Source: Roseivirga misakiensis
GTDB lineage: Bacteria > Bacteroidota > Bacteroidia > Cytophagales > Cyclobacteriaceae
Direction of reading: 5' to 3'
Assembly (NCBI RefSeq): GCF_001747105.1
Contig: NZ_MDGQ01000003.1
Location: 682,001-746,000, forward strand
Length of the DNA stretch: 64,000 nt
Part shown: positions 1,338 to 19,504 of the stretch, one piece after another
How the letters are laid out: each line of letters begins with the position of its first letter
Position numbering within the stretch: the first letter of the stretch is position 1
Position numbers and translations under genes: made by a program
The notes under the pieces: generated by a model
The model's database searches: none
What the model was told of the DNA's origin: nothing
Seen by the model: only the letters and a program-made list of their open reading frames with translations

Positions 1338-1355
1338 AGTAGCCTCGCTAGGAAT
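1338..1355. repeat. Left attachment site (attL)
   Basis: Perfect 18-bp copy of the 3' end of the tRNA-Arg gene at 19489-19560. After 1355 the sequence leaves the tRNA match (TCCTA here, CGAAC at the other copy), as expected when only the core is duplicated on integration. No tRNA body precedes or follows it, so this is a duplicated end and not a broken tRNA gene. Confidence 0.85.
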
Positions 1356-1652
1356 TCCTACTTCTTTGATTCCCTTACACTTACAAGTGATCTGTAAAAC
1401 ATACAGGTAAACAGTCTTGAAGAAACCCCTTAATGGTCTAGGAAAATAATAGCCGTATCCAGAAAAAGAAAAAATGAACTAAGACGCATTTCATCATGAT
1501 CATTTCCAAAATCATACTCCTATTAAGAATAAGTAGCTTCGACGGTCGGGTTAAACTGTTGTAGACATAATTACTTGTTATATTCCTAGGCAAACACTGT
1601 GGGAACAAACATCAAGGTATCTTTCTCGATACCCCATAAGAGGTAGTTCATT

Positions 1653-3107
1653 ATGAGAGACCATTCAATTACTTTTAAATACATTAAGAACAGGGTTCGT
1701 GAGTACTCCAAAGACGAAATGCTAGGTTTTTGTCTCAACCTACTCGAACAGAAGAAAAAAGAAGTTTTTCCTGTTTGGTTTGTCTTCACTTTAATGAAGT
1801 GGACCATTATATATGGCGGCCAGAACTATCCAAGTAAGAAGCTCACACCTGAGAAATTTTCAAGGCTTTTTAACAAAGTACAAGACTTTAATACGCAGCA
1901 CGTTTCAAGCTTTTTGAAAAGTAAACAAATACACAAGGCCTTTCAAATCCTCTACAATCAACAGTTCTACCTCCAGAAAACAGTCTATACAGAGATTCTT
2001 GCGACTCAATTAAAGCTTTTTGTAAGTATCACGGGCAAATACGACATTGACAAATCGTTTAAGCAAAAGACTGGACTCTCAGTTCGCGATTTTCTATTCA
2101 TCGAACAGATAATATTCATTTATATCAATATTGAGAAACTAGGGGATAAGCAATTATACTTTGATGGGAAATTAGAAGATCACTTTTTACAGTTAGTTGC
2201 AGAAATTACTGATAGGAACAAGGTGAAACACTTTCTAAATTTATTGACCCTATGCCCATCCAACGCAGAAAAAAGTATTTCGGGCTTCAAGCACAAAATT
2301 CGAAATGAGGATTTGCAAACCATGGAGATGTCATTTTTCACAATGTTCCCATTCATGTGGTATCGAGGGGAAACCCATCTTGTAGATAAGTCTGTGTTCT
2401 ATCATACTGCAAATTATTATATCTATGACTTTCTGAAGGCTAATGACGAAAAGTTCACTACGGAATTTGGTGATAGGCTTGAAAAGTATGTCGAGCTTGG
2501 ATTAAGAGAAATGCAGGCCTTATACAAGACAGAATCAGATATCAAGAAAATCCTCCAGCCACAATCCAAACTTGTTGATTTTTATGTTGAAGAAGAGAAT
2601 ATTCTAATTGAATGCAAAGCAACAGAGCTTCAAGCTTACTCATTTGTAAACCCCACTGATGAACTCCTATATAACTCTTTGAAATCATCAATCCTAAAAG
2701 CATATTTTGAGCAAATTTTAACTGTAGCAAGCCAATTAAATAACTCGAAAGAAAAATGGGGTATAATTTTAACCTATAAGGAGCTCTTCTGGAGCCACTT
2801 CATAGAACTTCATAGAATAACGAAAGAGAACTATAACGATAAAGGAGAAAACTCGTCCGTTCCACCTGAGAATGTATTTATCGTCGATTTGAATTCATGG
2901 GATAGAATAGTCGAGATAGTCAAAAGTGGCAAGGCGACAATGTCTGAAATTCTCAAATCCGCAAAAAATGACAACTCGAATTCCAATACATCAAAAATGC
3001 TGTTCAGGATGCATTTGGATCAATACAATATTGAAAAGCTTGATTTGACTTTTTTAAGAAAGGAAATAGAAGAATTCGATATTAAGAACACTTCGCAAAA
3101 TAATTAG
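1653..3107 (+). CDS. PD-(D/E)XK nuclease-like protein, island cargo
   Basis: A 484-residue protein without a recognised full-length family. Residues about 275-325 read FGDRLEKYVELGL, then KLVDFYVEE and ILIECKA, placing Asp309 and Glu320-x-Lys322 in the spacing of a PD-(D/E)XK nuclease core. A conserved-looking Glu (around 277) lies in the preceding helix. The first ~270 residues are mainly helical with aromatic-rich stretches and no clear motif; they may be a sensor or DNA-binding part. No signal peptide or membrane segment is seen, so it should be cytoplasmic. The ATG follows a weak AAGAGG purine stretch about 13 bases upstream. It is the first gene inside the left attachment site and converges on the GHKL-nuclease gene at 3183-5048. 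A defence role is inferred from motif and location only. Confidence 0.7.
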   Translation: MRDHSITFKYIKNRVREYSKDEMLGFCLNLLEQKKKEVFPVWFVFTLMKWTIIYGGQNYPSKKLTPEKFSRLFNKVQDFNTQHVSSFLKSKQIHKAFQILYNQQFYLQKTVYTEILATQLKLFVSITGKYDIDKSFKQKTGLSVRDFLFIEQIIFIYINIEKLGDKQLYFDGKLEDHFLQLVAEITDRNKVKHFLNLLTLCPSNAEKSISGFKHKIRNEDLQTMEMSFFTMFPFMWYRGETHLVDKSVFYHTANYYIYDFLKANDEKFTTEFGDRLEKYVELGLREMQALYKTESDIKKILQPQSKLVDFYVEEENILIECKATELQAYSFVNPTDELLYNSLKSSILKAYFEQILTVASQLNNSKEKWGIILTYKELFWSHFIELHRITKENYNDKGENSSVPPENVFIVDLNSWDRIVEIVKSGKATMSEILKSAKNDNSNSNTSKMLFRMHLDQYNIEKLDLTFLRKEIEEFDIKNTSQNN

Positions 3108-3182
3108 CAAACTTAACTCTGAGCGACTTTCAGTTAGAAACAGTAAGTCGAATAGGTTATAATTACTAAGGTTTTCGCAGTA

Positions 3183-5048
3183 TTATTCGGCAATCCTCTT
3201 TTTTAACAACTGCATAAAAGACGAATTTCTCGCTTCTGCATCACTAATGAGAGCATCATAGTTAAGAACGAATAGTTTGATTGGGATTTTATTAAATCTG
3301 TTATCGATATCCGGAATAATAAACTCTTCTCCGTAAAGCATTTTCCCTTTTGAGTACAAAGGAATATATCCATCCTCAAGCAATGACCTCTCAAACTCGG
3401 TATCAATCTCAGCTATCCCATAATACCAAATTCTTTGGATTTTATCTGCATACTTGTCATTCAGAACCCGAGCACGTTGCTTCAATTGACTCACTACCTC
3501 CTCTTGTTTGGCTAAATTAATTCCCTGTTTCTTAAGCTCAATAATAACTACGTCAACCTTCTCAGCCTCCTCAGGGTTATCCGAAAATATAATTGCAATA
3601 TCTGGACGTGTCCCATCCGAATTGACATTACCTTCATTCCCTGCAATTTCCCTTAACAACTCATCCATTCGTCTTTCACTTAATACAGAGGAGTATGTCA
3701 TAAACTTGTCATCAAAGACCCAAATGTTATTCTTAAAAAATGTTTCTATATCACCATCATTATGATCATAACTGCCTTTGGGAATGATAACATCATGTAT
3801 GTCATCTTCATTTGCACTCGCAGTTGCTTCTTTCAGACGTTTTAAAGAAAAATCTCGATAAAGAATATACTCCATAAGAAGCCGTGAGGATACCTCAAGA
3901 GATTTTTCATACTGCTCATCATCAAGGTGGGTCGCTTCAAGTATCTTCTTCTGATCTTGAAAAAAACGCATTTGAGCTGCCTCTAGACTCATTGCTTTAT
4001 CAGCTATACCTATGGACTCATCTTTGAAATACCCAAATAGATGTGGGTACTTACTTTCTAGGCTACTCTTAAGTTGCTCATTTCTCTCTGAAATCTCAGG
4101 AATATGCTCTTTCAATAGATCGCCTACATGCTTTTTAAAAACATTTTTTAATTGTTTTATGGTGAACTCAGGCAAGTCAAGTTGTTGCCTGGATGGATCT
4201 ACTCTACCAGTGAGGTAATCAGAAATTAACAAAAAGATAAGCTCGTATCCTTCCGGCAAGGAATCCCCTCCCGGTATTTTCATTTCTACAGTTCTGTTGT
4301 CCACGCAGACTGCAATAATACTCATGCTTTCTTCAGCTATTTGCTCCTTTTTTTCTATCGAATAGTACAAATGAAACTCATCTATCAATGAAAGAGTGTT
4401 ATCATGAAATGAACTCACTTGAAGAGTAGGCAAATCGCTCAATTTGATCGACTGAAAATCTGGGATATAATGATAACCTGGTTTGGGTGAAGTGGTTTCA
4501 AGCGAAATAGAAATTACAAGTTCTTTATTGGCTAGTTTCTTTTGATATAGTAAAGGGAAAAAATGTAGCAAAATAGACCTTTTTAAGGCTAGAGGTCTCA
4601 GGTAGTTGTATGCCTTGATTTTATCCTTCTTATAACCTGAGAATTTCAATACCGAACCTGACTGCGTCTCAGCGGTCTTTTCGATTTGAGAGTCCCCATC
4701 GAAAGAGCGGTCAAACCTGAATGATCTTTTCTTTCCATCATAGTAGCTCTCAACATCTATAGTGCTGAAGTACTTCAAAAATACTAAACGACCAACACCT
4801 TTATGGTCTTTCTCCTCCGTTTCGAGTAGTTTTTTGAACTTGTTAAAATTATCTTCCCTAAAACCTTCACCATTGTCACTTATTTCTACGGAAAACTGAT
4901 TTATGTCCTGCAAGTCATTTGCCTTAATCTTTAAGTCTATTTTAGTACTCCCGGCATCCATTGCATTGGCAATAGCTTCAAAATACACCAACTCAAGAGA
5001 TGGGTTTGGGAAGAAAAGATCTGCTGCTTTTGAAATATTTACGTCCAT
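3183..5048 (-). CDS. GHKL (HSP90-like) ATPase fused to PD-(D/E)XK nuclease
   Basis: A 621-residue two-domain protein. The N-terminal GHKL ATPase is explicit: N box EAIANAMDA (Glu24, Asn28), G1 box DNGEG (58-62) and G2 box KGVGR (83-87). A middle region (about 100-400) follows with the layout of the transducer half of HSP90/MutL-type proteins. The C-terminal part (about 435-560) holds NNIWVFDDKF, then RPDIAII (Asp483) and VIIELKK (Glu504-x-Lys506), a canonical PD-(D/E)XK pattern reminiscent of the Shedu/DUF4263 style. The fusion suggests ATP-driven dimer clamping that controls DNA cleavage. The gene is alone on its strand, tail to tail with the nuclease at 1653-3107 (75 bp apart). An anti-phage effector is the likeliest role but is inference. 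Domain calls are firm, system name unknown. Confidence 0.8.
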   Translation of the reverse strand: MDVNISKAADLFFPNPSLELVYFEAIANAMDAGSTKIDLKIKANDLQDINQFSVEISDNGEGFREDNFNKFKKLLETEEKDHKGVGRLVFLKYFSTIDVESYYDGKKRSFRFDRSFDGDSQIEKTAETQSGSVLKFSGYKKDKIKAYNYLRPLALKRSILLHFFPLLYQKKLANKELVISISLETTSPKPGYHYIPDFQSIKLSDLPTLQVSSFHDNTLSLIDEFHLYYSIEKKEQIAEESMSIIAVCVDNRTVEMKIPGGDSLPEGYELIFLLISDYLTGRVDPSRQQLDLPEFTIKQLKNVFKKHVGDLLKEHIPEISERNEQLKSSLESKYPHLFGYFKDESIGIADKAMSLEAAQMRFFQDQKKILEATHLDDEQYEKSLEVSSRLLMEYILYRDFSLKRLKEATASANEDDIHDVIIPKGSYDHNDGDIETFFKNNIWVFDDKFMTYSSVLSERRMDELLREIAGNEGNVNSDGTRPDIAIIFSDNPEEAEKVDVVIIELKKQGINLAKQEEVVSQLKQRARVLNDKYADKIQRIWYYGIAEIDTEFERSLLEDGYIPLYSKGKMLYGEEFIIPDIDNRFNKIPIKLFVLNYDALISDAEARNSSFMQLLKKRIAE

Positions 5049-5281: not shown

Positions 5282-5971
5282 ATGAGAAATAAGGAGATTA
5301 AGAAGTATATATCCTGGCTAAATGAGAAAAAGAATCAAGATTTGATCTTTACACGTCAAATAAGCTCTACGGTGGACGAAGGAATTGTATGGCCAAACAA
5401 TCCAGGTGATGGTGTTGTTGCGAACTTTGATCGACACCATTTTTTCTTTATTAAAAATGAAAAAGACATTTATGTAGGCGCCATTTTGGATATGGGTACA
5501 GATCTCCATTGGTACATGCTCAAAGAATACCGCAAAAAGGGGTATTTAACAAATGCACTTAGAGTGACCATTCTGCCTTATTTATTTCTGGAAAGAGAAG
5601 AGCAAAGAATATCTATCAGTGAAGGAATTGGGCCTGTAAACCATCAAAACTCTAAAAGTGTCGCAACTAAGTTAGGCTTCAGACCCATGTACGAAACTGG
5701 AAGCCAATTTGTCTTGACCAAAGAGGAGTTTATTATAGACAGGCTATTGATTGAGGAAGAGGATAACCTTATGAGTGATGAGCGATGTGAACTTCTCAAA
5801 TCCAGAGTAAATCAGGCATACCGAATTCTGTTGAAAGTCAGTGATGAACTAACTATCAGATATCTGGATGATGGAAACCTCAGCGACTTAGCAAAATCTG
5901 TTAGATCATATATGGCCAAAGTTGACCAAATTCATTGGATGGTTAAGCGCGAAGAAGGTCTCAACCCCTAA
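5282..5971 (+). CDS. GNAT-like N-acetyltransferase
   Basis: A 229-residue protein. Residues about 70-145 match the GNAT fold: WYMLKEYRKKGYLTNAL corresponds to the acetyl-CoA-binding motif A (Q/R-x-x-G-x-G/A variant), and NHQNSKSVATKLGFRPM is the usual N-x-x-S-x-x-x-A-x-x-LGF motif B. A helical C-terminal extension of about 75 residues (from DRLLIEEED on) is not part of the core fold and may be a dimer or partner surface. The substrate cannot be told. It stands alone between the GHKL-nuclease and the two-gene operon, with more than 230 bp on either side, so it has its own promoter. Possible roles are a toxin-type or protein-modifying acetyltransferase, or simple cargo. Family call good; role open. 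Confidence 0.7.
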   Translation: MRNKEIKKYISWLNEKKNQDLIFTRQISSTVDEGIVWPNNPGDGVVANFDRHHFFFIKNEKDIYVGAILDMGTDLHWYMLKEYRKKGYLTNALRVTILPYLFLEREEQRISISEGIGPVNHQNSKSVATKLGFRPMYETGSQFVLTKEEFIIDRLLIEEEDNLMSDERCELLKSRVNQAYRILLKVSDELTIRYLDDGNLSDLAKSVRSYMAKVDQIHWMVKREEGLNP

Positions 5972-6247: not shown

Positions 6248-7492
6248 ATGGAGAGAAAAAAGAAAGGTGCATGGCTCATACACCATGCAAAAAAAATTCA
6301 ACAAGCTGAAGGTGTTGGAAATTTTGAAGATGTCCTAATTGGAGGGAAAGCTGGAATCTTGTTATCGGCCCTATCACAGGATAACGAAACGGTCGTATCA
6401 AAGGACAAAGTTCATATTATTTCCAAACTCTCAAATGTTCAAACCAAAGTCGAACTTCCATTCTATTTAGAAAAGTTCGAGAATCTTGGTTACATAAAAA
6501 GAAGTCAATCCGGAGATATTGCTGTCTTAGGGGTTACTAATGAAAGCATGTTAAATGTGGCTGCAGATGTCTTCGAGTCTGAGTTGGGAGCTGACAACTA
6601 TCAATCTGCATCCATAGCGATGAGTGACCTAGTGTCTGAAACTCCCATGAAAGAAGCCCTACTTCAAGAGAAAATTGGTGACACCTTCAAGATAGATAAG
6701 AAACAAGTAAGCAGGCTGTTTATTGAAGGAGAGTCGATTGGCTTGATAGATGCAGAATCTCTTGATCCTCAAAACAAGGTTATTTTCAATGGAAATCTTT
6801 TCAGAAGAGAAGATATTAAGAAGACAGATGCTGTTTTAAGTTCATTATCAACTAACGAGAGTAAAAAAATATTAGAAATAAATCATCTATTGGACAAAGA
6901 GGGTTGTGTTTCCTTACACAAAGCAATCGAAATTTGTGGGAAAATTCTCGTTCAAAAAGTACAGAGTGTCGGAATGTTTGACATTAACGCAGTAAGTAAC
7001 AGTAGCGAGAAGGTTGAGTTTTTAACAAGACCATCAGCATTCTCAATGTTCGGTGACCCATTTGAAGATGACGCCCTGGATCATGCAAAAGCCCTTGTTT
7101 CGTCTCTTACTTACGGAATGAAGATTAGTTCAGACAAGAGGGGAAGGATTACAATGATCGGAGCACTTTTACAGAGACTTATTGATGGTCATTCAGTTGG
7201 ACCTGCCCCTGCAATAGGACAGGATTACAAGTATCTCGAATCTAAAGGTGTTGTGAAGATAACACAGACAAGTCAAACTCACTTTTCTATGGTACTTTTG
7301 AAAAAAGAGGTGGGTAGAATTGCCAAATCTGTACTAGAGAAAGGTGAGGCTTACGAAACAGCAATTTCAAAGTTCTTCGGCTCAAGTGTGACTGCATATA
7401 CAGAACCAGAAATAGCCAGAACAAAATTAAGAAAAGGACCGGACCGAAGAGTCATTGACGATATGATTGAAGCACTAAGAACTTATGACTGA
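6248..7492 (+). CDS. Unknown protein, partner of Mrr-like nuclease
   Basis: A 414-residue cytoplasmic protein I do not recognise. It begins with a lysine-rich segment (MERKKKGAWLIHHAKK) and shows several helix-helix-strand blocks resembling winged-helix domains, for example the block ending FENLGYIKRSQSGDIAVLGV (about 72-95) and one in the C-terminal third ending YLESKGVVKITQTSQ. Serial winged helices would fit DNA binding or regulation. It lacks Walker motifs and catalytic signatures. Its stop overlaps the next gene by 8 bp, so the two are surely co-translated. The pair sits between other nuclease genes in the island cargo zone. A regulator or DNA-recognition subunit for the downstream nuclease is the best guess. 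Confidence 0.6.
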   Translation: MERKKKGAWLIHHAKKIQQAEGVGNFEDVLIGGKAGILLSALSQDNETVVSKDKVHIISKLSNVQTKVELPFYLEKFENLGYIKRSQSGDIAVLGVTNESMLNVAADVFESELGADNYQSASIAMSDLVSETPMKEALLQEKIGDTFKIDKKQVSRLFIEGESIGLIDAESLDPQNKVIFNGNLFRREDIKKTDAVLSSLSTNESKKILEINHLLDKEGCVSLHKAIEICGKILVQKVQSVGMFDINAVSNSSEKVEFLTRPSAFSMFGDPFEDDALDHAKALVSSLTYGMKISSDKRGRITMIGALLQRLIDGHSVGPAPAIGQDYKYLESKGVVKITQTSQTHFSMVLLKKEVGRIAKSVLEKGEAYETAISKFFGSSVTAYTEPEIARTKLRKGPDRRVIDDMIEALRTYD

Positions 7493-8495
7493 TAAATCAC
7501 TAAATAAAGGATATAAGACTGAGGAACTTCTAAGAAGTTATTTTCAGGAGATTGGTTATTACGTCGTTAGAGGATGTATTTTTTGGTTTAAAGAAAAAAA
7601 TGTAACCGATGTTGATCTATGGCTTTACAATCGTCCAAGTGTATTGGAAAGAAAACGAATTATTGTTGATTCAAAGAGGGGTGCATCTCCAAAAGCTTTA
7701 CAAAGAATTTTATGGACCCTTGGAATGAAGGAAATCTTGGGTGCTGACGACTGTATAGTCGCAACTAATGATAGAAGTCGTGATATCAAAGATTTTGGAG
7801 AACTACATCAAGTTGGAGTTTTAGATGGCTCTTTTATACAGAGACTCAAACTTGACCCAACTCGGTTTACTGAGGAAGAATTTCTGAAGCTGACCAATAA
7901 TCAATCAGAAATCAAACAACCTGACAACTGGAATAGAAGATATCAAAATTCAAAAAGTCGCCTTTTATCCAAACTCAATTTTTCTGGATGTATTCAATGC
8001 CTCAATGACATTAAATACTTTTTAGAGCAAGTGGTTCATAATCCAAGTGAGCGAGAAAAAGCATTGAGACTATCCTATGCAATCACTTCACACTTTCTGA
8101 TAATAGTCGACTTCATTTTGAAGAATCTGCCTTTTCTTGACAAAGAGGAAAAAAGTCAAAGGCTAATTAATGGGCTTAGATATGGAACAAAAGGAAAAGA
8201 CTTTATGGAATTGACTTTAAAGATTTCTAAAGGAGATACAGGGACACGAAAGTGGCTTGACCAAAGTCTAAAAGATATACCTGTCAAAGATCTTGCTGAC
8301 TTTTTACTGAGGCCCGAAATTTCAAAATCCTTGTTTCAGCAAGCGGTCGATCTCGAATCATTGGCTTATTCCAAACATTTAGTAGGTCTAAAGGATATGG
8401 AAATACTTCCACTAAGTACTCTTTATGTGCTGGCAGATTACTTCGGTATTAAAAGAGTTGACTTTAAAGAAAGTGCCTCATCTGTTCTAACATAG
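7485..8495 (+). CDS. Mrr-like PD-(D/E)XK endonuclease
   Basis: A 336-residue protein whose first 100 residues fit the Mrr/restriction-endonuclease-like fold. A helix KTEELLRSYFQEIGYYVV carries the usual Glu (13/14), then TDVDLWLY supplies Asp44, and IIVDSKRG gives Asp62-x-Lys64. The next helix (ALQRILWTLGMKEILGAD) and the strand DDCIVATN complete the alpha/beta core. The remaining ~230 residues are helical and unrecognised; they may bind the partner or sense a signal. It starts inside the 3' end of the 6248-7492 gene (8 bp overlap), defining a two-gene operon. DNA cleavage is inferred from motif; target and trigger are unknown. Confidence 0.7.
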   Translation: MTDKSLNKGYKTEELLRSYFQEIGYYVVRGCIFWFKEKNVTDVDLWLYNRPSVLERKRIIVDSKRGASPKALQRILWTLGMKEILGADDCIVATNDRSRDIKDFGELHQVGVLDGSFIQRLKLDPTRFTEEEFLKLTNNQSEIKQPDNWNRRYQNSKSRLLSKLNFSGCIQCLNDIKYFLEQVVHNPSEREKALRLSYAITSHFLIIVDFILKNLPFLDKEEKSQRLINGLRYGTKGKDFMELTLKISKGDTGTRKWLDQSLKDIPVKDLADFLLRPEISKSLFQQAVDLESLAYSKHLVGLKDMEILPLSTLYVLADYFGIKRVDFKESASSVLT

Positions 8496-8647
8496 AGACT
8501 CAAAGACACATTCTTAAAAATCGTGTGCAGACGACCACTCAAATATGATCATTTATGAAGGTCATAATGGTCTAAAGTAGCAGCCGATTGAATTGGCATA
8601 ATCTTAGCGTACGTCCTCCCGAACATAACCGAACACATTCGCGAACG

Positions 8648-9337
8648 ATGGCCGAACCAAAAGCTAGAACCCTTATTCAACAGCTCGGATTCTTTGATAA
8701 AGACTTAAAGACGAGTAGCCATGATGAAATCATGATATGGCTTCAAGAAAACGCACATTCTGCTATTAACCGATTATTCTACACCCCCTGGTCTGACGGA
8801 TATCTGGATCTACTAATAAGACAGACCAAACAACAGTTAAAAGATTGTATTCCCGAACTCGAAAAGCGTATGAGCTCTAAAAAACGAACGGAAGCAGACT
8901 ATGAGTTACTTGGGGAATTAAAAAAGTGGAATGGCTTAAAGGAACAACTTGAGAGAAAACCTTTCCAAATACAAAAAATAGAATGGGAGAAAGCCATTGA
9001 TCAGCTAGGCCACAACTCTAAAAAGTTCACTATTGGATTTATTGACATGGCAATCACGTACAGCTATCAGGACATTTGGATAAATGGAATACCTTACAAT
9101 CGGAATGATCAATTTGACATATCAAATTACTCAATACCCCAGTGGGCAACCGATCTATCAACAGAGACTATCTATGTAGAAGTAAAAACCAAAATACCAT
9201 CGGCCGGAGAGCTAATGCGTCAATTAAATCTTTACAGAAACTACCGACCAGGCACATATGTAGTTGTATCCCCAGATAAAAGGTTCAAGGATATCCTATC
9301 AAATCAAGGCATTAGCTTTCTAGCTCCTTTTACATAG
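8648..9337 (+). CDS. Small PD-(D/E)XK nuclease-like protein
   Basis: A 229-residue protein from ATG at 8648; a longer frame from TTG at 8588 exists, but its extra 20 residues have low-complexity basic character and no ribosome site. A helical N-terminal part of ~100 residues includes QQLGFFDKDLKTSSHDEIM. It is followed by GFIDMAITY (Asp about 133) and ETIYVEVKTK (Glu178-x-Lys180), a PD-(D/E)XK pair. The following GELMRQLNLYRNYRPGTYVV resembles the helix-strand after the active site in this superfamily. It lies downstream of the two-gene nuclease operon but 152 bp away. It is the fourth nuclease-type gene of the island and the last before the repeat array. Function inferred as DNA cleavage or repair. 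Confidence 0.6.
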   Translation: MAEPKARTLIQQLGFFDKDLKTSSHDEIMIWLQENAHSAINRLFYTPWSDGYLDLLIRQTKQQLKDCIPELEKRMSSKKRTEADYELLGELKKWNGLKEQLERKPFQIQKIEWEKAIDQLGHNSKKFTIGFIDMAITYSYQDIWINGIPYNRNDQFDISNYSIPQWATDLSTETIYVEVKTKIPSAGELMRQLNLYRNYRPGTYVVVSPDKRFKDILSNQGISFLAPFT

Positions 9338-10272: not shown

Positions 10273-10478
10273 ATTCAAACAGGAAGTAAACTTCAGTATA
10301 TTCTACAATCTCAATCACTGGAAAGAATGCGCAACACAATATGAAGATTCTGATGTCAGGCCATAAAAAGTTCAAGCAGAAAAGTAGTGAGTAATAATAA
10401 TTCAAAATAAAATCGATCAGTTTTGTATATTCACAATAGGAAAAACCATAAATCAAAATTGAAAATCAATATAACTAA

Positions 10479-11132: not shown

Positions 11133-11134
11133 AA

Positions 11135-11623
11135 ATGGGAGGTTCTGAGAAAAAGGAGTTTATCCAGTTTGATATTACAGGTAAAAATGAGGCACTTTGG
11201 CATAGCCTTTCAAAGCGACTTGAGACTATTGTACAAGACATTGTGGCAAAAGTCTCCAATAACAGTGCGAGCCCGGCTATAACAAAAGAAATCCTTGCAT
11301 TGGGCGTAGATTTTGTGAAAGCAAAGGCCCAAAAACCTACACTAGAAAATGAAAAGTTAAAGGCTGAAATTACTGAACGGTATAGCCAAGTTCATAAGAA
11401 CATGGCTGAAACAGAATTGCATACGGAAGAAGCCTTATCTAAAAAGATTGATAACTTGGAGAAAATGATACGCTTGATGTTTCTCCTGAAAGGCGGGCCC
11501 ACACATTTCTTACAAGATAATAACGAAGCAAACTTGCTATTTGGAGTGGATCTAAATCAACTCACGGACAAACGTCCTGACTATTCTGATGAAGATCCAC
11601 ACACTAGTGAAGGTAAAGACTAA
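11135..11623 (+). CDS. Unknown coiled-coil protein, second cassette gene
   Basis: A 162-residue protein beginning two bases after the preceding stop. Residues about 18-125 are strongly helical and heptad-like (LWHSLSKRLETIVQDIVAKV... KNMAETELHTEEALSKKI), followed by MIRLMFLLKGG and an acidic, probably disordered tail (DKRPDYSDEDPHTSEGKD). No catalytic motif, HTH or membrane span of normal length is seen. Tight linkage to the 10479-11132 gene argues that the two products act together. Toxin-antitoxin or defence functions are possible but unsupported. Confidence 0.5.
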   Translation: MGGSEKKEFIQFDITGKNEALWHSLSKRLETIVQDIVAKVSNNSASPAITKEILALGVDFVKAKAQKPTLENEKLKAEITERYSQVHKNMAETELHTEEALSKKIDNLEKMIRLMFLLKGGPTHFLQDNNEANLLFGVDLNQLTDKRPDYSDEDPHTSEGKD

Positions 11624-11744
11624 CTAGCAGGGGTAAGGATCCAAGATAACTTTACGGATGGATTAGCTTTGCTTTACGATTATTAGAAACGCCACCAAGT
11701 TTTAAAATAATGTAGTCCGAACTTGGCGAAAAACTAGTATAACA

Positions 11745-12180
11745 AAGAGCCATTGCTTTCAATGGTAAACTCTCTACCATTCATCGGTGAATCAACGGTG
11801 CCTTCAGCATAATAACCAGTAAATGGCTACCTAGAGCGAATGGAATAGTCAGCCATTCACGAAAAAACGGTTGTTGCAAACGCAAACTAAACGGAAAACG
11901 AACGCCGTATACATATCTTTTGCAATGCTCTACACGCTAAAAGCAAACCGTAACAAAACACCCAAACGGAATTAGATAATAAAGCCATTGCTTTCAATGG
12001 TGAACCCTCTCCCTTTCACCGGTTATTTGTTGGTACTTTCATCGTTTTAATTGGTAGAACGACTATATAGAACATTCAGGAATTCACGTAACCACGGTTC
12101 TTTCAAACGGAAGTCAAACAGATCTTTCCTAGCGTTAGTTATCCCTAGAGGCTAGAAGCAAACGGAAAACACAATAGGTA
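11745..12180. repeat. Repeat array B, copy of array A
   Basis: 11745-11873 matches the second half of unit 2 of array A (about 9919-10046). 11874-12107 matches unit 3 (10047-10272) over most of its length, including CCTCTCCCTTTCACCGGTTA and GTACTTTCATCGTTTTAATT. 12108-12180 is a decayed next unit (TTTCAAACGGAAGTCAAAC... AGAAGCAAACGGAAAAC). The unit starting at 11874 begins like unit 2 (CGAACGCCGTATACAT) but ends like unit 3, as if recombined. The offset between arrays is 1,827 bp, so a segment carrying the two-gene cassette is bracketed by direct repeats. The 11624-11744 stretch before it holds nothing recognisable. Confidence 0.8.
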
Positions 12181-12317: not shown

Positions 12318-12710
12318 TTATTCCAATGTCTCCAATAATCCATTTAAGGACTTCTCTTTAGGCTTACTCAAGCCTACCGCGACTGCCGTACCGACTGCCA
12401 GGAGCAAAACGCCACCTACAATTAAACTTGTATTGGTGCCTTCATATTTAGTATTAACATTCATCTGTGAATTTTTCATTTGATTTTGTGCAGCCAGGTT
12501 CTGAAACTTTAATTGCTCAAGTTTAAAAGCCGCTTCATTATTCTGACCTACTATTTGTTGTTGTAAAAGAAGGTTATTCCTATCCCTCTCTGCCTGCTTC
12601 TTAGCCTGACTACCTCCAATCAGGTTGGTGATCGTGCTGAAGCCTCCGGTTATCCACTCAGGAGCTAGCCCTAGCCCCTGATCAGCATGATTTTGATCAA
12701 CTGGATACAT
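12318..12710 (-). CDS. Small membrane protein with coiled coil
   Basis: A 130-residue protein. It has a glycine-rich N-terminal segment (EWITGGFSTITNLIGGSQ), then a Q/N-rich amphipathic coiled coil (about 35-80, KKQAERDRNNLLLQQQIVGQ). One transmembrane helix near residues 93-112 (SLIVGGVLLLAVGTAVAVGL) is followed by a short charged tail. The layout, a hydrophobic glycine-rich start followed by a long helix, loosely recalls minor virion or DNA-pilot proteins of small phages, but I cannot show homology. It is the last gene of a run with 12714-13379 (3 bp apart) and precedes the terminator. Function unknown. Confidence 0.55.
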   Translation of the reverse strand: MYPVDQNHADQGLGLAPEWITGGFSTITNLIGGSQAKKQAERDRNNLLLQQQIVGQNNEAAFKLEQLKFQNLAAQNQMKNSQMNVNTKYEGTNTSLIVGGVLLLAVGTAVAVGLSKPKEKSLNGLLETLE

Positions 12711-12713: not shown

Positions 12714-13379
12714 TCAATATTTTTTTGGAGAAAACTCCTCCTCTAATATACCATCGAGGCTTTCTTCCTCCACTTGCTCCTCATCAATCTCTTGATCGAA
12801 CTCATTGATCTCCAAAGCCTCTTCTATATATAGCACATCGTTTTCATCAAAGTTCAATTTGATGGTATCTCCTTCTTCTTTGTCAAGAACCAATTGCTCT
12901 AAGTGCTCAATCAAACCCTCAATGCGATTCCAGATAAACAGTTTTTGGAAGACTTCTGAATCATGTTGACAAATAGCTTCTGATCTTGATAATAAAGTTT
13001 TAAGTTTCTTAATGTAAAGAATCACTTCTCCATATTGCCACTTGAAACCTTGACTATGGTTCTTAAGAAAGGTCAAGAGTTTTTTGAATGTGATAAGGAG
13101 CGATCTCTTTTCCTTGAGTTCAGATTCTTCCTTTTCCCTTTTAAAAAGGTCTAACTCCTCTCTTTTTAATCCATTGAATTCCTTAATTGCATCAAGTAAA
13201 CCTTTAGCTAGCTCTGGATCGTCTTGTAACTCTCCCAGCCCTTTTTCTATGTTGTACTCATAGTACCATACTTCCGACAAGGATTCCTCTAACCCCAATT
13301 GATTAGCAACAGTCTTATTGTCCCAACCTTCATCAAAGAGCTCGATAGCCCTTTGTTTTGCATTAAATTGTTCTTTCAT
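12714..13379 (-). CDS. Acidic helical protein with N-terminal HTH-like segment
   Basis: A 221-residue protein. Residues about 8-35 (QRAIELFDEGWDNKTVANQLGL) resemble the helix-turn-helix of small terminase-type or resolvase-type proteins. The rest is charged coiled coil (KREELDLFKREKEESELKEK) with a strongly acidic C-terminus (EEEQ/DEEQVEEESLDGILEEE type). This could be a DNA-packaging or regulatory protein, but the match is only general. It is followed after 3 bp by the membrane protein gene, so the two are co-transcribed. Confidence 0.5.
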   Translation of the reverse strand: MKEQFNAKQRAIELFDEGWDNKTVANQLGLEESLSEVWYYEYNIEKGLGELQDDPELAKGLLDAIKEFNGLKREELDLFKREKEESELKEKRSLLITFKKLLTFLKNHSQGFKWQYGEVILYIKKLKTLLSRSEAICQHDSEVFQKLFIWNRIEGLIEHLEQLVLDKEEGDTIKLNFDENDVLYIEEALEINEFDQEIDEEQVEEESLDGILEEEFSPKKY

Positions 13380-13466: not shown

Positions 13467-13742
13467 TTAATGTGAATTACGATTGTAAAAGTCATTGGGA
13501 ACACCCAATTGATCAGCTATCCTCATAATTTGGCCTGTCGTGAAGGTTCGCTTTTTCAATAAATTAAAGTTCAGTTCAGTCTGAATCTCTTTAAGTTCTT
13601 GGCGTAGCTTATTGAGTGACCAACCATAATATTCAGCCAATTGAGATTTATTGGTGACTTTATGAAGTTCTGGATCACTTAGATGATCACTGCCTATTCT
13701 CTGGGGCTGGAAACCCCTAAGCTGAGGGTCAAGAGGTTTCAT
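13467..13742 (-). CDS. Small HTH-like protein
   Basis: A 91-residue protein with a proline-rich start, then KSQLAEYYGWSLNKLRQELKEI (about 31-52) and TGQIMRIADQLGVP (about 69-82). Both segments have the helix-turn-helix spacing of small phage-type DNA-binding proteins. It is the first gene downstream of the inverted-repeat array and starts only 39 bp from it, so it may bind or regulate that array. No family assigned. Confidence 0.5.
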   Translation of the reverse strand: MKPLDPQLRGFQPQRIGSDHLSDPELHKVTNKSQLAEYYGWSLNKLRQELKEIQTELNFNLLKKRTFTTGQIMRIADQLGVPNDFYNRNSH

Positions 13743-13780
13743 TTATAGTATAATGGATTGGTAAACCTACAACTCAGGTA

Positions 13781-14093
13781 TAATGTCCCGTCACAAAATC
13801 TATTTTTGACCCATAAACAATTGATAACAAGCATATTACGATTAATATTATCGGGACATAAATGGGACATTTCAATATCCAAACGCCTTATTATCAAGTG
13901 CTTAAAGGCATATCGATTGGGACACTTTTTGTCGCGCTTCCGGGACAAAAAGTGTCCCGTTTTTAAAGTCTTTATAACATTGATTATCAAATAGATATAA
14001 ATATCAATGTCCCATTTATGTCCCGAATTTATATTCATTATACTATTGATTATCAGTCAGTTACAATATAAAAAAGTCCTTAGATCGGGACAT
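13781..14093. other. Nested inverted-repeat array, candidate replication origin
   Basis: Non-coding AT-rich DNA with at least nine GGGAC/GTCCC half-sites in both orientations. An outer perfect 21-bp inverted repeat pairs 13851-13871 with 14006-14026, and each arm itself has two GGGACA copies 11 bp apart. An inner perfect 15-bp inverted repeat (GGGACACTTTTTGTC) pairs 13919-13933 with 13944-13958 around a 10-nt spacer. Single sites lie at 13784-13789 and 14087-14092. Repeated half-sites, nested palindromes, flanking AT-rich DNA and adjacency to the DUF3987/DnaB-N genes fit an origin with initiator sites. A regulatory hub or phage-type packaging site are alternatives. Mirror-image short frames here are produced by the repeat. 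Confidence 0.7.
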
Positions 14094-15496
14094 CATTTTG
14101 TAACTGCATTAAAAATCTTTGGATAGTCTTTTATCATCTTTTTAATCGTTCTCTCTGCCAATTTTTTTCGTGAAGCAGCAGTTGATGAATTTTTGCTGAA
14201 CTCAAGGTCACCGATTTTTTGAAAGCTGAAACCAGCCTTAGAATAGCTGGCGAACCTCAACACATCAACAGGAGCAGTAACTGAATTGGAAACCCTCTCA
14301 CTAACATTAATTGCGCTTTCAAAGAAGTATTCTGACAATTCGATTGCCCTTTCCATTGTTGAGCCCTCAACCTCCTCTAATACACCAAACCTTAAACCTG
14401 GTGTGTAGCTTATATCTGCAAGGTGAAGTAATGCACTGAAGCGAAGACAATACTCCTTAATCTTCCCATGAATGCCCGCTTGTATTTCTTTGTCAGAAGA
14501 GTCTTGAAGCCTATTGACCATTCTCTGTTTGTTCCTAGACCATTGACTGTAAATCCTTACAGCTGAACTGGAGAGTTTAACTTTCTTACTGTACTCATCA
14601 ACATCAGAACCAACCTCTAATTCATCAAGTAAACGATTAATTGAAGATTTATGAATTGATTCAAACTCTTCAGGCATATCAAATTCAAGGTTAACCTCTG
14701 CAATTTTAATCACCTCAGGAACCGCAAAGAGTAACCGAAAGACGAACCCAGTCTTATCTCTATCATTCTTGAATATCTTATGGAGAACAGAAGGTTGAAT
14801 ACCTCCAAAAACGTTAACAAAGGGTCTTGAAAGATGAAATTTTTGATTTCGAGCTCTTATGGCAGTATAGGCCTTACAATTCCAAGCTGACATCCAGAAT
14901 TGTTCATCTGTACCTTCTTTTCTTGAAAGTTGATTCATCCCGTTAATCCACTCCAAAATTTCATCTGCATCCTTGAGAATTCCCTTTGGGTTTGATGGCA
15001 TAACATATCGTATTAGTGTCTGAACATGAGAGTCTCGGTAGATTAACTGCTTTAAGTCGGGAGTATCTGCCTCAGAACTTTCTGAATCTAGATTTTCTGT
15101 TTTCCAGGCATCATCATATTCCTTTTGCCTATCTAAATGCGGCTTGAAGACTTGATTCATAACAAGTGATTTCCCTGACGAACTAATACCTTCTAGACAT
15201 GCCCAAATTGGCAAGAAAATTTTACCAATTTTTTGAATTTCAACATGATACCCAGTACCAATTGCAGTGCTGTAAGCACATAACAGCCCTAAGCCTATAT
15301 AAGATCTTGGAAGATCATATTCCTTGTGAAGGGCATCTAAGTAAGGCTTGATTTTATCATTAAAAACATGGAGCGGAAAAGGTTTTTTAAGATTTCGGGA
15401 TTCTAGCTCCTCTCTCAATTCGTCTTCACTAGCTGTAGCTAACTTTCTATTCTCGGAGAGGAATTGTTCAAAATCTGGAAGGTCCTGATTATTCAT
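14093..15496 (-). CDS. DUF3987 replication-type P-loop protein
   Basis: A 467-residue protein resembling the DUF3987 family, which in Bacteroidota mobile elements and satellites sits with primase or DnaB-like genes. GISSSGKS (103-110) is a Walker A motif, preceded by an IFLPIWACLE strand. DADEILEWI (about 164-172) is in the place of Walker B or sensor. A helical C-terminal half continues to FSKNSSTAASRKKLAERTIK. An ATPase or helicase-like step in element replication is the expected role; no primase catalytic domain is visible in this chain. Its start overlaps the upstream DnaB-N-like gene by 8 bp. It ends against the inverted-repeat array, with the last GGGACA site touching its stop codon. 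Confidence 0.75.
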   Translation of the reverse strand: MNNQDLPDFEQFLSENRKLATASEDELREELESRNLKKPFPLHVFNDKIKPYLDALHKEYDLPRSYIGLGLLCAYSTAIGTGYHVEIQKIGKIFLPIWACLEGISSSGKSLVMNQVFKPHLDRQKEYDDAWKTENLDSESSEADTPDLKQLIYRDSHVQTLIRYVMPSNPKGILKDADEILEWINGMNQLSRKEGTDEQFWMSAWNCKAYTAIRARNQKFHLSRPFVNVFGGIQPSVLHKIFKNDRDKTGFVFRLLFAVPEVIKIAEVNLEFDMPEEFESIHKSSINRLLDELEVGSDVDEYSKKVKLSSSAVRIYSQWSRNKQRMVNRLQDSSDKEIQAGIHGKIKEYCLRFSALLHLADISYTPGLRFGVLEEVEGSTMERAIELSEYFFESAINVSERVSNSVTAPVDVLRFASYSKAGFSFQKIGDLEFSKNSSTAASRKKLAERTIKKMIKDYPKIFNAVTK

Positions 15497-16160
15497 CTAA
15501 TGCTCGATTTAAATGATCAACTGTTTGATTTAGTTCTGTTATCAGTGAGCCGACCCTCTGATCACTTGGGATCTCCAGGTTACATAATTCTCTAAGCAGA
15601 CACCTCAGTTTATTTGCGCTTTTTATCTCACGAATCTTCTCGGGTAAAGAATTTAATAGATCAACTACACTTGTAGGAATTTTTGATTCGAAATGCCGCT
15701 CCAAGTAATTTCTTATTGAATCGGTGAGATCAAAAAGGTCTCGATCATAATCACGAACCATTTGACCCATTGACTTAAACAGCGAACCAACTTGAAAGTC
15801 TTGTTCACTAATAGCTTTAGCTTCCTCAATTGACAAGACACTGGATAACTTCTCTCTTATGTCTAACTCTAAAAGTTGTAAAGAGTAATACTCAATATTG
15901 TCACTTACTACGAAATTTGTCAGGCTTGAAAGATAGCGGTGATATGTCCGCTCTCCCTTTTTCAATAAAAAGCTCGCAACTGATATGGTATCAATAGGCT
16001 CTGTTGGATAGAGTTGCTCCATTGCCTTCCATATTGCTTGGTGATTATACTCTCGATTCACTGAAAAGTTCTTAGTGGATAGAATGTGATTTACCCTACC
16101 AAACTTTTTTTCCAAAGCCATACCAAGTACTGTACTCTCTAAAAGCAGGCGATCAATCAT
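15489..16160 (-). CDS. DnaB N-terminal-domain-like protein
   Basis: A 223-residue protein. Its first ~115 residues follow the DnaB N-domain pattern: LLLESTVLGMALEKKFGRV, then FSVNREYNHQAIWKAMEQLY, then IDTISVASFLLKKG and NIEYYSLQLLELDIREKL. The RecA-like helicase domain is absent, so the chain is far shorter than a full DnaB (about 450). Such stand-alone N-domains paired with a P-loop protein suggest a split helicase or loader that may recruit host replication proteins. It overlaps the DUF3987 gene by 8 bp, indicating translational coupling. Family resemblance is clear; exact role inferred. Confidence 0.7.
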   Translation of the reverse strand: MIDRLLLESTVLGMALEKKFGRVNHILSTKNFSVNREYNHQAIWKAMEQLYPTEPIDTISVASFLLKKGERTYHRYLSSLTNFVVSDNIEYYSLQLLELDIREKLSSVLSIEEAKAISEQDFQVGSLFKSMGQMVRDYDRDLFDLTDSIRNYLERHFESKIPTSVVDLLNSLPEKIREIKSANKLRCLLRELCNLEIPSDQRVGSLITELNQTVDHLNRALDE

Positions 16161-16202
16161 AAGATGTGTTGATTAAAAAAAGGGGCTGTGTGCCCCTAGG
16201 CT

Positions 16203-16739
16203 TCAAATTGAAATTCTACTCTTAATGAATTCAATTTCGTTCAGGTCTCTGGGAATTCGATCCAAAAGCTTGACATAAGATCCATCTGCTCTTTTTGAGA
16301 TAAGATGGAAATTAGTGTACTTCCAAATTAGTCCATCTGCATCTTCCGTGTCAGCTCCTCCATGTAGTAGAGCGTGCCTCCTAAACTCTTCAATACTAAA
16401 AGAAAAAGGCGCGTTGTTATAGACATCTACATCATTTTGCTCGAAAGTATACTTATCAAAACCTTCAAACTCTCTGTCAGATCTATCCAGTTTTTCACGT
16501 TGCTCTCTAAGCAATGATTTATACAAAAAGACTTCTAACTTTTGATTAATTATTTCATTCATTTGGTTGTGAATGATAGCATCTTTCTCCTTCAATTCTG
16601 CTCGGCTTTGACCAATGAATTTTAGTACTTCGGCTTTAAACTTCCAGTAAGCGTCATGCGCTGCATCACTGTCTACTTTTAGTGTTTTCCAAAAAACGCC
16701 GTTGAAATTATCGAATAATTTGTCTAATTTAGTTTTCAT
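16203..16739 (-). CDS. Unknown helical protein in replication operon
   Basis: A 178-residue protein with a coiled-coil middle (RAELKEKDAIIHNQMNEI then LYKSLLREQREKLDRSD). The C-terminal half ends FHLISKRADGSYVKLLDRIP, which looks like a small alpha/beta module. No motif gives a function. It lies between the HTH gene (16789-17082, 49 bp) and the DnaB-N-like gene (42 bp) on the same strand, so it is part of the replication transcript. Confidence 0.5.
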   Translation of the reverse strand: MKTKLDKLFDNFNGVFWKTLKVDSDAAHDAYWKFKAEVLKFIGQSRAELKEKDAIIHNQMNEIINQKLEVFLYKSLLREQREKLDRSDREFEGFDKYTFEQNDVDVYNNAPFSFSIEEFRRHALLHGGADTEDADGLIWKYTNFHLISKRADGSYVKLLDRIPRDLNEIEFIKSRISI

Positions 16740-16788
16740 AATGAACTATTTTATAAATGATTAGGCAAAGCTGGCAGGCTTTGCTTTT

Positions 16789-17082
16789 TTATTTAATTCC
16801 GAAATATTGCTTGATTGAAGCTTCAGGAACGTATATTTTTCTCCCCTTCCTGATATACTCCAATTCACCATCGGCAATGAGTTGATCAAATTTCCACCGT
16901 TTGATATTCAAGGCTTCCATAACTTGATCCGATGTCAACATATTAGGAATTACGCTTGCTTTGTTTATATGCTTTACGAATTCTAAAAGTTCACTGAGAG
17001 TCCCTTCTATTTTATCAATTCTGGAATTGAATTGTTCCTCTGGAATAATTTGAAGATTGAGGTTTGAATTATGTTTACTCAT
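16789..17082 (-). CDS. HTH excisionase/MerR-like regulator
   Basis: A 97-residue protein. The C-terminal half is the helix-turn-helix typical of excisionase-family (HTH_17) proteins in Bacteroidota: MLTSDQVMEALNIKRWKFDQ followed by the wing LEYIRKGRKIYVPEASI. The N-terminal half is a short coiled coil (RIDKIEGTLSELLEFVKHI). These proteins act as directionality factors or as transcription switches (compare AlpA in P4-like satellites). It is the first gene after a well-formed promoter (17134-17165), and TGTGGTTTA repeats overlap that promoter, so autoregulation is likely. Confidence in the fold is high; the choice between excisionase and regulator is open. Confidence 0.8.
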   Translation of the reverse strand: MSKHNSNLNLQIIPEEQFNSRIDKIEGTLSELLEFVKHINKASVIPNMLTSDQVMEALNIKRWKFDQLIADGELEYIRKGRKIYVPEASIKQYFGIK

Positions 17083-17103
17083 GTTCTTTACTGTTTATAG
17101 TTA

Positions 17104-17199: not shown

Positions 17200-17209
17200 A
17201 TTTTTGTTA

Positions 17210-18016
17210 TTAACCATACATTTTATCTAAAATTCTACTAGACTGGCCAGCTAAAATAGCTGCATGAAATTTGTGAAGTGCCTTTTTAGTGTAATAACCT
17301 AGCTCAATTCCATGTTTTAGCTTTTCTTCTAAGTCATTCTGACTAAAGAGGCTCTGATTCCATTGAAATGACCACAAAAGTCTATCCTCAAGTAGCTGAT
17401 TAAGGTATACGCAAAGATTATGGGATTCTTTTAAACCGGATAAAATTTGGCCTACATCTCCCTCTTTAGGAAAAATATTCTCTAGAAACCCAAACAAATC
17501 CCAATACTTGATATCCCAACGTAATATTTCAGTCAAATCATTCTGCCTGTTGGCATTCAATGCATTAATCAATTCTTCCTGATAGTGGTAATGCATTATC
17601 TCTTGTACAGGAATTAGAAATCGTGAAAGGCTCTTAACAAGATTACTTAAGTCAAAATCAATACTAAAGAGTTCAACAGTCAGCTTGGTGATTGATTTGA
17701 CGAAGTCTTTCTCAGATTGTAATAAATAATTTAAATCACCTCCCTCTTTAAACCTTTTTTTGTAATCAAGTTCTGACCAATAAACATTATCGTTTTCTAT
17801 TTCAGTATCTCTATAGCGCATTAAGTTTTCTAGTTGATCAACTGTATTAAACTGAAATAACCAGAATAGACTTTTGTATTGAGTTTGGCTTTTACCGAAC
17901 CTTACTTTAACATATATCGGATATACTTCCTTAGTTTGACCATCCTTTTCAATGATCTTAGGCTTAAGTCTTGTGTTTAAAAAATGATTTACTGTAGCTT
18001 TCTTTTCGTGAGCCAT
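17210..18016 (-). CDS. Arm-domain-like protein without recombinase catalytic part
   Basis: A 268-residue protein. The first ~55 residues (VNHFLNTRLKPKII, then VYPIYVKVRFGKSQTQYKS) resemble the N-terminal Arm DNA-binding domain of Bacteroidota tyrosine recombinases. The rest is helical with no R-K-H-R-H-Y residues. It could be a DNA-binding accessory factor for integration or excision that recognises arm sites. It starts 42 bp downstream of a remnant of a second integrase 3' end. The intergenic operator cluster follows its stop. Function not established. Confidence 0.5.
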   Translation of the reverse strand: MAHEKKATVNHFLNTRLKPKIIEKDGQTKEVYPIYVKVRFGKSQTQYKSLFWLFQFNTVDQLENLMRYRDTEIENDNVYWSELDYKKRFKEGGDLNYLLQSEKDFVKSITKLTVELFSIDFDLSNLVKSLSRFLIPVQEIMHYHYQEELINALNANRQNDLTEILRWDIKYWDLFGFLENIFPKEGDVGQILSGLKESHNLCVYLNQLLEDRLLWSFQWNQSLFSQNDLEEKLKHGIELGYYTKKALHKFHAAILAGQSSRILDKMYG

Positions 18017-18057
18017 GATGCAAGATAGTTTACAACAACGTTTTTCTTAATAATTAA

Positions 18058-18129
18058 TCAAAAAAGCACATCACCAAAATCATTAGGCCTATCTACCATG
18101 TGGTAATTGTTCATTTCATATTCATATCG
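18058..18129 (-). pseudogene. Remnant of a second integrase C-terminus
   Basis: The minus strand from 18129 reads RYEYEMNNYHM... then DFGDVLF and TGA at 18060-18058. It aligns with the last residues of the intact integrase (YYEMNAYHMAGG... SFEDIEF, stop) including near-equal length to the stop. An in-frame stop lies just upstream (18142-18144), so only about 22 codons survive. DNA similarity is visible too (GTTCATTTCATA shared). It marks a past duplication, or replacement of an older integrase by recombination. Confidence 0.6.
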
Positions 18130-18175
18130 AATCGCACAATATCAGCAATTAAGAATCATGATGTTTTTCAAAAAA

Positions 18176-19351
18176 TTAGAACTCTATATCTTCAAAACTA
18201 CTTAACCCTCCAGCCATATGATAGGCGTTCATTTCATAATAAATCTGAGTGGTTTGTTCCTTTTTATGGCCCAGCATTTTTGAAACGAATTGTCGTGGAA
18301 ATCCTTTGGAGATCATCAGATCGGTAAAAGTATGCCTACCCACTTTATTGGTAATATTCTTATCAATACCGGCCAAAGCAGCAATCTCTTTAAGAGCCCG
18401 ATTATAAGCAGGTTCCTCTATAGTTGGGAAAATTGGGTTATTACCCATATCCATATACTGTTTCAGTATCGCTATCCCATATGGAAGTTTATAGATAGGG
18501 ATTATAAACTTGTTGTTATTCTTGAACCGGTTGCTTTCAATCATCAGTCCGGCTTCAGTTTCAATGACTTGATCAGGGCTCAATTGTTTCACATCGTTAT
18601 AATACAAACCAGACCTGCACTGAAAAGAGAAAACGTCTCGATGTTTAACCAAATGTTGTTTGTCTTCAGGTAATTTTAAGTTATACCAGGCTGTAAGCTC
18701 TTCAGTATTCAACGCCGTTCGTTTTGCTGGAGCTAATGATATTTCCAGCTTCACTTCAAAGAAAGGGTCACGCATAAGATAATCATGCTTTAGGGCGTCT
18801 CTAACTATCTTCTTAAAGGGGCTAAAGTATTTATCAACCGTAGATCCCGAATGTCCCTTAGACAATAAAAAGTCTCTGAATTCAAGAATTAGTGATTCCT
18901 CTAAATGATTGAACCTAATTTTAGGGTTGAAATTATCAAGATGCTTTTGGAAGGTGATAAACTTCTTTCGGGTATTCAAGGAAACAAATCTGGCAGTTTT
19001 GATATAATGCACTACGTAATCATTAAATGAATTCTTATCGCCCTTCCTTTCAAAGAAAGTCTTCAATTTGTCAAACGTCACTGGCCGGTTCATGAACATC
19101 AAATTATTTTGATACTCTTGCAGCTCCCGCAATCGATCCATCAAAGCAGTGTTAAACATATAGTGCTGATGGTGAGAATCCTTTACCCATTTATTCTCTT
19201 TCCCAGACCAATACTTCAAAGGCAGTTTAGGTAGATCCGGGTCGAAGTATCTGGTCTCACGATCTACAGTAACACGGATATGAATAGAATATAAACCACT
19301 CTTGTTCTTGGCGTTAGTTCGGTTGTGAACTGGTTTGAATGTAACTCCCAT
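18176..19351 (-). CDS. Tyrosine recombinase (integrase)
   Basis: A 391-residue phage-integrase-family protein with the Bacteroidota layout: Arm domain (about 1-90), core-binding SAM-like domain (about 105-200) and catalytic domain (about 210-380). The C-terminal box KMLGHKKEQTTQIYYE gives His362 and the nucleophile Tyr371 with the normal 9-residue spacing. Arg339 lies in NKVGRHTF. Two usual residues differ: the Arg I position in the T-G-L-R-x-S-D motif reads SGLYYND (Tyr250, with Arg246 nearby), and the residue three before Arg339, usually His, is Lys336. IntDOT of CTnDOT also lacks Arg I, so activity is still plausible. It sits 135 bp from the attachment core at the tRNA-Arg 3' end. It should catalyse integration and excision of the island. 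Confidence 0.9.
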   Translation of the reverse strand: MGVTFKPVHNRTNAKNKSGLYSIHIRVTVDRETRYFDPDLPKLPLKYWSGKENKWVKDSHHQHYMFNTALMDRLRELQEYQNNLMFMNRPVTFDKLKTFFERKGDKNSFNDYVVHYIKTARFVSLNTRKKFITFQKHLDNFNPKIRFNHLEESLILEFRDFLLSKGHSGSTVDKYFSPFKKIVRDALKHDYLMRDPFFEVKLEISLAPAKRTALNTEELTAWYNLKLPEDKQHLVKHRDVFSFQCRSGLYYNDVKQLSPDQVIETEAGLMIESNRFKNNNKFIIPIYKLPYGIAILKQYMDMGNNPIFPTIEEPAYNRALKEIAALAGIDKNITNKVGRHTFTDLMISKGFPRQFVSKMLGHKKEQTTQIYYEMNAYHMAGGLSSFEDIEF

Positions 19352-19486
19352 AACTGTAAAACAATTTGGTCAACAAGTTACGGGTACTATCAGGTTTTGA
19401 CAAGATAACAAACAGGACTAAACACAAATAAAACTACTGATTATCAGCATTTTAAAGCTTGTTAGTTCTTGTTAATTATTGGTAAA

Positions 19487-19504
19487 AGTAGCCTCGCTAG
19501 GAAT
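19487..19504. repeat. Right attachment site (attR) at tRNA-Arg 3' end
   Basis: Perfect 18-bp match to 1338-1355. It covers the acceptor-stem 3' strand and part of the T stem of tRNA-Arg plus two bases beyond the discriminator, so the tRNA stays functional after integration. Confidence 0.85.

Follow-up and report, generated by a model that had tools for sequence, protein, structure and literature searches.

A segment bounded by two copies of the 3′ end of a transfer RNA (tRNA) gene raises the question of whether it arrived as a unit and, if so, how such a unit might move. We asked this of positions 1338-19504 in a 64,000-nucleotide stretch of the Roseivirga misakiensis genome (contig NZ_MDGQ01000003.1, positions 682,001 to 746,000; the whole stretch is hereafter the window, and positions are counted from its first letter). 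A sequence-only reading had described this segment as a complete island inserted at tRNA-Arg(CCT), with junctions defined to the base. We find that the segment, taken as a whole, is very probably an integrated mobile element, and that there is good support for its integration at the tRNA end by a tyrosine recombinase.

Ends of the island and its tRNA target

The 18-bp sequence AGTAGCCTCGCTAGGAAT is present as two exact copies in direct orientation, as had been claimed. The distal copy (1338-1355) marks the left junction as a putative attachment-site copy, and the other (19487-19504) marks the right junction, where it comprises the last 17 nucleotides of tRNA-Arg(CCT) plus one base. This tRNA gene, the integration target, is intact (19488-19560, minus strand; detected by ARAGORN, and by Rfam at 66.9 bits). 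Across the genome (4,449,419 bases, five contigs), the 18-mer occurs with up to two mismatches at two places only, both exact and both at the island ends, which answers the earlier concern that it might recur by chance. A reversed pattern, used as a control, gave one match at the same tolerance. The window contains 12 maximal exact direct repeats (at least 16 bp long and at least 1 kb apart); 11 form an internal array at 9.7 to 12.1 kb, and the twelfth is the island end pair. The guanine-cytosine (GC) content of the island is 36.3%, compared with 38.1 to 39.8% in 53 overlapping segments of equal length (18.1 kb) to its right. Excision would release a predicted circle of 18,149 bp (19487 minus 1338). 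The crossover could be at any point of these 18 bp, which places each junction within the repeat but not at a single base. Thus, of the precision first claimed, the repeat pair stands, and the left breakpoint is unproven at the level of single bases.

The expected integrase adjoins the tRNA. A tyrosine integrase gene (18176-19351, minus strand), encoding arm, SAM-like, and catalytic domains (Pfam PF13102, E = 4.7e-15; PF00589, 9.4e-13; PF17293, 4.9e-6), starts 136 bp from tRNA-Arg(CCT). The integrase-side attachment arm lies between them (19352-19486). This region, 140 bp between integrase and tRNA, is alike in the window and in two relatives, G005 and G003 (0 of 300 shuffles reached each score), and its similarity was not found in seven other relatives compared. 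A search of 19 genus genomes for the integrase gene matched two, this genome and G005. Outside the genus, the closest integrases were those of G426 and G545, encoded beside tRNA-Met and tRNA-Asp, respectively; the latter is 37.9% identical to that of the window (E = 1.4e-87).

On the right of the island, tRNA-Arg(CCT) is adjoined by hflX. We compared hflX loci from 17 same-genus relatives (an eighteenth, G017, had no hflX match). In 14 of these 17 stretches, the tRNA lies near hflX, and a separate search located it in G001, whose stretch ended before the tRNA; none was present near hflX in the stretches from G002 or G008. Homologues of the left-flank gene (1-1065, minus strand) occur in 7 of 19 genus genomes, this one included. 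Only G015 has this gene (59% identical to that of the window), the tRNA, and hflX together on one contig (C346, locus L049; 6,980 bp), which matches the island in neither DNA nor protein. Judged by gene order in this one relative, whose locus is uninterrupted, the insertion is real at the gene level. The intergenic DNA of G015 has diverged and cannot be aligned with window positions 782-1337, so the island-free site is shown at the gene level only; the proposed search for an empty locus therefore succeeded for the genes and failed for the junction itself. Together with the unique repeat and a related element in G005, this locus bears out the claim of an integrated element with a duplicated tRNA end at both ends.

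A shared core and a repeatedly used site

G005 carries this related element at the same tRNA-Arg(CCT). The two elements share five proteins: the integrase (57% identical), the proteins encoded at 12714 (49%), 12318 (42%), and 8588 (40%), and an HTH_17 protein (37%). The replication module of G005 differs, comprising a DUF6371 protein and a DUF3987 protein that cannot be aligned with that of the window. Its cargo includes QatABCD (E = 1.2e-104, 2e-8, 2.3e-88, and 1.8e-61) and AbiH. No structural, relaxase, coupling, or mating-pair gene is listed among the 10 open reading frames (ORFs) scanned in this element. We also considered dnaE and dinB as cargo of the G005 element and dropped them, because G014 carries the two genes as well, positioned between this left flank and the tRNA.

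The HTH_17 protein (16789-17082, minus strand) is excisionase-like (Pfam PF12728, E = 2.3e-7; PHROG excisionase families, E = 8e-4 and weaker). The 12714 protein (12714-13379, minus strand) is predicted to have N-terminal helix-turn-helix-like helices followed by a long helix. Its model, built from a two-row alignment, has a predicted local distance difference test score (pLDDT) of 69.7 and gave no Foldseek match at E ≤ 0.001 among viral structures (394 rows to E 10) or the PDB (72 rows). The top viral row suggested a terminase small subunit; at E = 0.34, we did not use it as evidence. Homologues were found in 1 of 196 family genomes and 2 of 19 genus genomes. At 1e-3, 6 of 390 order genomes matched, of which five were weak (E = 9.8e-6 to 8.9e-4) and not counted. 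Note that G005, which bears the core genes, is absent from the larger family, order, and phylum draws.

The 12318 protein (12318-12710, minus strand) is small and, judged by eye, helical with a hydrophobic segment at its C terminus. A phage family without assigned function, phrog_6529, weakly matches this protein and two of its relatives (E = 0.0015, 0.00089, and 0.0012). The 8588 protein (8588-9337, plus strand) appears PD-(D/E)xK-like by eye, and D153, E198, and K200 are invariant in its three-sequence alignment (A1). The corresponding profile matched 1 of 390 order genomes at 1e-6, too few for this family to serve as a marker of further elements. Distant 8588 homologues (~24 to 25%) are present on Rhodanobacter and Azospirillum plasmids (L072 and L073), and in the Azospirillum record phage tail and lysozyme are annotated close by.

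Other relatives suggest that the site has been occupied more than once. In G003, the integrase gene is gone, and its first 13 codons remain, followed by stops; because these codons and the integrase-side arm persist without the gene, this locus looks like a decayed copy. An exact 15-bp second core lies at C22:10148 in G005; the same arm and an integrase fragment adjoin it on the left, and it appears to represent an older copy at this site. Left of dnaE on this contig (L105, 9814-10350), an integrase fragment, arm, core, and opposite arm are contiguous, arranged as they might be at the junction of two tandem elements. In G006, the tRNA end is repeated 2 kb away (27 bp, one mismatch), with AbiE-type genes in between. 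These genes and two sequences resembling the G005 left end lie between the tRNA-end repeat and the tRNA in the oriented G006 locus (L065, 8043-8221 and 9438-11480). In G013, the exact window-type 18-mer occurs 1.4 kb from the tRNA, along with a further partial copy and a fragment of 62 bp with 82% identity to the 8588 gene; G012 has a weak, partial copy of the tRNA end. Separately, an AbiE-type region in G016 (L054, oriented 17577-19265), ~71% identical to that of G005, ends ~130 bp from tRNA-Arg(CCT). We read the tRNA-Arg(CCT) locus as a site used repeatedly in the genus, with the G013, G012, and G006 cases being partial. A left arm common to these elements was also considered and was rejected for the window, whose left end lacks such similarity.

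Replication module, cargo, and repeat array

We scanned 18 island ORFs against Pfam and PHROGs, 10 of them also against NCBIfam, and 10 plus the 16203 ORF against PADLOC. The recognized features were the integrase, HTH_17, a DnaB N-terminal domain, DUF3987, and a HATPase, along with a GapS1-family match below its cut-off. The replication module pairs a DUF3987 protein of helicase/primase type (14093-15496, minus strand; Pfam PF13148, E = 5.5e-33; phrog_2373 DNA helicase, E = 2.1e-28) with a DnaB N-terminal-domain protein (15489-16160, minus strand; Pfam PF00772, E = 3.1e-9). The DUF3987 protein recurs at 44 to 46% identity in four Cytophagales-labelled loci from metagenome-assembled genomes (Flammeovirgaceae and Cyclobacteriaceae), each with a homologue of the DnaB N-terminal-domain protein at 27 to 32%. 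The three of these loci that were aligned (L003, L004, and L006; alignment A2) encode a small protein resembling 12318 (23 to 30%). The DUF3987 protein is also 46 to 49% identical to proteins of three IMG/VR contigs; among 10 proteins scanned from such contigs, a tape-measure match accompanied by an integrase was recognized in L068, and a lysis amidase in L069. At 1e-40, the DUF3987 profile matched 1 of 395 phylum genomes.

The first gene inside the left end (1653-3107, plus strand) encodes a probable antiphage cargo protein, judging from its match to NCBIfam NF047931 (antiphage_GapS1; E = 1.1e-80) and to phrog_14259 (E = 1.8e-11). The NF047931 match is full-length (residues 11-454 of 484 amino acids) and scores 271.7 bits; because the curated cut-off is 320, we term the protein GapS1-like. 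Similar proteins (~24%) occur in 13 phage records, 12 of them labelled Klebsiella, and in the eight phage matches listed the gene lies at 220-1596 of a 35.6-kb record. The next gene encodes a HATPase-domain protein, also putative cargo (3183-5048, minus strand; Pfam HATPase_c_3, E = 5.3e-9; phrog_6203, E = 1.5e-16; MutL/PMS2-like ATPase, E = 0.0025). It is followed by a possible GNAT acetyltransferase (5282-5971, plus strand; Pfam Acetyltransf_3, E = 0.0087, 17.2 bits, below the cut-off of 25.4). Two uncharacterized genes on the plus strand overlap by 8 bp: 6248-7492, whose product had no match in Pfam, PADLOC, NCBIfam, or PHROGs, and 7485-8495, which matched Pfam DUF5985 only (E = 0.063). By eye, the 1653, 3183 (C-terminal), 7485, and 8588 proteins appear to contain nuclease-like motifs.

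Three minus-strand ORFs elsewhere in the island encode uncharacterized proteins. The small one at 13467-13742 matched phrog_10027 (E = 0.0075), and that at 16203-16739 had no match in Pfam, PHROGs, or PADLOC. The third, between the integrase and HTH_17 genes (17210-18016), had no family match in Pfam, PHROGs, or NCBIfam. Its predicted fold (pLDDT 37) was discarded, and BLASTP (E = 0.20) did not bear out a guessed relationship to the 311-amino acid protein that follows the G545 integrase.

The internal array consists of two noncoding blocks. The left block (9672-10291) contains 2.2 copies of a 234-bp unit with 80% matches (TRF), and the right block (11731-12119) is ~90% identical to 9904-10291. 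Between them are two uncharacterized plus-strand ORFs (10479-11132 and 11135-11623; together 10479-11623), with no family match below E 0.05 in Pfam or PHROGs. The 234-bp repeat is confined to this island and was found in none of the other genus genomes (19 searched). Rfam recognized no structured RNA in it, recognizing the tRNA only, and its fold gave z scores of -2.57 on the minus strand and -1.25 on the plus strand.

Mobility and comparison with known systems

We propose that the integrase inserted a circular element by recombining its attP site with the tRNA end, which served as attB; identity between these two stretches would leave the tRNA with a complete 3′ end after insertion. The HTH_17 protein would aid excision, the DnaB N-terminal-domain and DUF3987 proteins would replicate the excised circle, and protection of the host from phages by the GapS1-like protein and other cargo would keep the element in place. 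We infer excision, circular replication, and a defence benefit from established knowledge of such families.

The 18 island ORFs scanned include no capsid, portal, terminase, structural, or packaging match (Pfam and PHROGs), so the island lacks recognizable virion structural genes of a prophage. Nor do they include a relaxase, coupling, or mating-pair match (Pfam; no search for an origin of transfer was made), and the island is thus neither an integrative and conjugative element nor a relaxase-bearing integrative mobilizable element. Because it has no recognizable genes for a particle or a conjugation machine, its movement should depend on a helper. The route that we tentatively favour is packaging by a helper phage. 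Immobility, or transfer by some other route, is rather less likely, and mobilization by a conjugative element slightly less likely again.

In that last case, the island would be an integrative mobilizable element contributing only an origin of transfer and borrowing the relaxase and channel of another element. This alternative, unlikely as we judge it, stays alive because the G545 element, with its related integrase at tRNA-Asp, encodes a relaxase (PF03432, E = 9.3e-29) along with an HTH_17 relative, a NikA-like protein (E = 3.6e-6), and type I restriction genes; the lack of relaxase, coupling, and mating-pair matches here and in the scanned G005 ORFs counts against it. Less probable still is a prophage that has lost its structural genes. 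The DUF3987 protein is shared with contigs bearing tail and lysis genes, as such an origin would predict, but the scanned genes of G005, which has the same five-protein core, also include no structural one, and the small form therefore appears conserved rather than decayed; the window ORFs themselves have no structural PHROG match. That the repeat is a chance or tRNA-fragment copy flanking ordinary variable chromosome is very improbable: it would fit the unmatched left end and the partial tRNA-end copies of G013 and G012, which accompany no recognizable element, but not the unique exact repeat, the adjoining integrase, the gene-level island-free locus of G015, or the GC shift.

Several observations nonetheless weigh against a helper-dependent, defence-carrying mobile element. 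The left end of the window differs from each of six other candidate left ends (25 to 297 of 300 shuffles reached the score) and shares no sequence similarity with those found in G005 or G006. The left junction lacks base-for-base confirmation, and the insertion is real at the level of gene order. An excised circle is not visible in the assembled sequence, and excision would be expected by analogy. No viral-contig relative was found for two of the three core proteins or for the integrase, and viral scans with profiles A1, A2, A4, and A6, and with the 12714 protein alone, returned no relative. The DUF3987 protein has homologues in 4 GenBank phage records (22 to 25%) versus 26 plasmid records (up to ~26%); annotated collections thus favour phages no more than plasmids. 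On the defence side, the GapS1-like protein misses its curated cut-off, and PADLOC recognized none of 10 window proteins at 0.01, nor the 16203 product.

A bolder reading, which we consider speculative and probably too strong, is that the window and G005 elements represent an undescribed family of helper-dependent elements, defined by the integrase, HTH_17, 12714, 12318, and the nuclease-like 8588 protein. At a single tRNA-Arg site, its members would swap defence cargo and whole replication modules, with 12714 and 12318 diverting helper packaging or entry. The element alone is not enough to establish a new mechanism. Its value lies in core genes without a family name and in a site occupied more than once: comparison with G005 allows the constant parts (the five core proteins) to be separated from the changing ones (replication module and defence genes), and the movement of islands without capsid or relaxase becomes a testable question.

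Titles and abstracts on satellites, QatABCD in Bacteroidota, and tRNA-Arg islands in Bacteroidetes did not reveal this element, which is no proof of absence, as most subscription papers fall outside this scope. PMC12324425 concerns marine elements unrelated to this island. Phage satellites, as defined in PMC11389934 (PICI, cfPICI, P4-like, PLE, VEIMEs, and tycheposons), include many that carry antiphage systems. Like the satellites described there, the island is small and integrated, with an integrase, its own replication proteins, and antiphage cargo; unlike them, it has no recognized terminase, capsid-remodelling, or packaging gene, and none of the satellite families named in the searched libraries matches 12714, 12318, or 8588. 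The K. pneumoniae GAPS1 system is described as protecting against many phages (PMC12908700). The window protein resembles the GapS1 family along its full length and differs in its sub-threshold score. With the G545 element, the island shares a related integrase, an HTH_17 protein, a tRNA target, and restriction or defence cargo, whereas the relaxase and NikA-like protein of G545 are missing here and the target is tRNA-Arg(CCT) rather than tRNA-Asp. The G005 element is closer, with five core proteins, the same tRNA, and a similar integrase-side arm, and it differs in its replication module and in its QatABCD and AbiH cargo. The element belongs to a familiar kind, the tRNA-integrating, defence-carrying island, ordinary in kind and well delimited.

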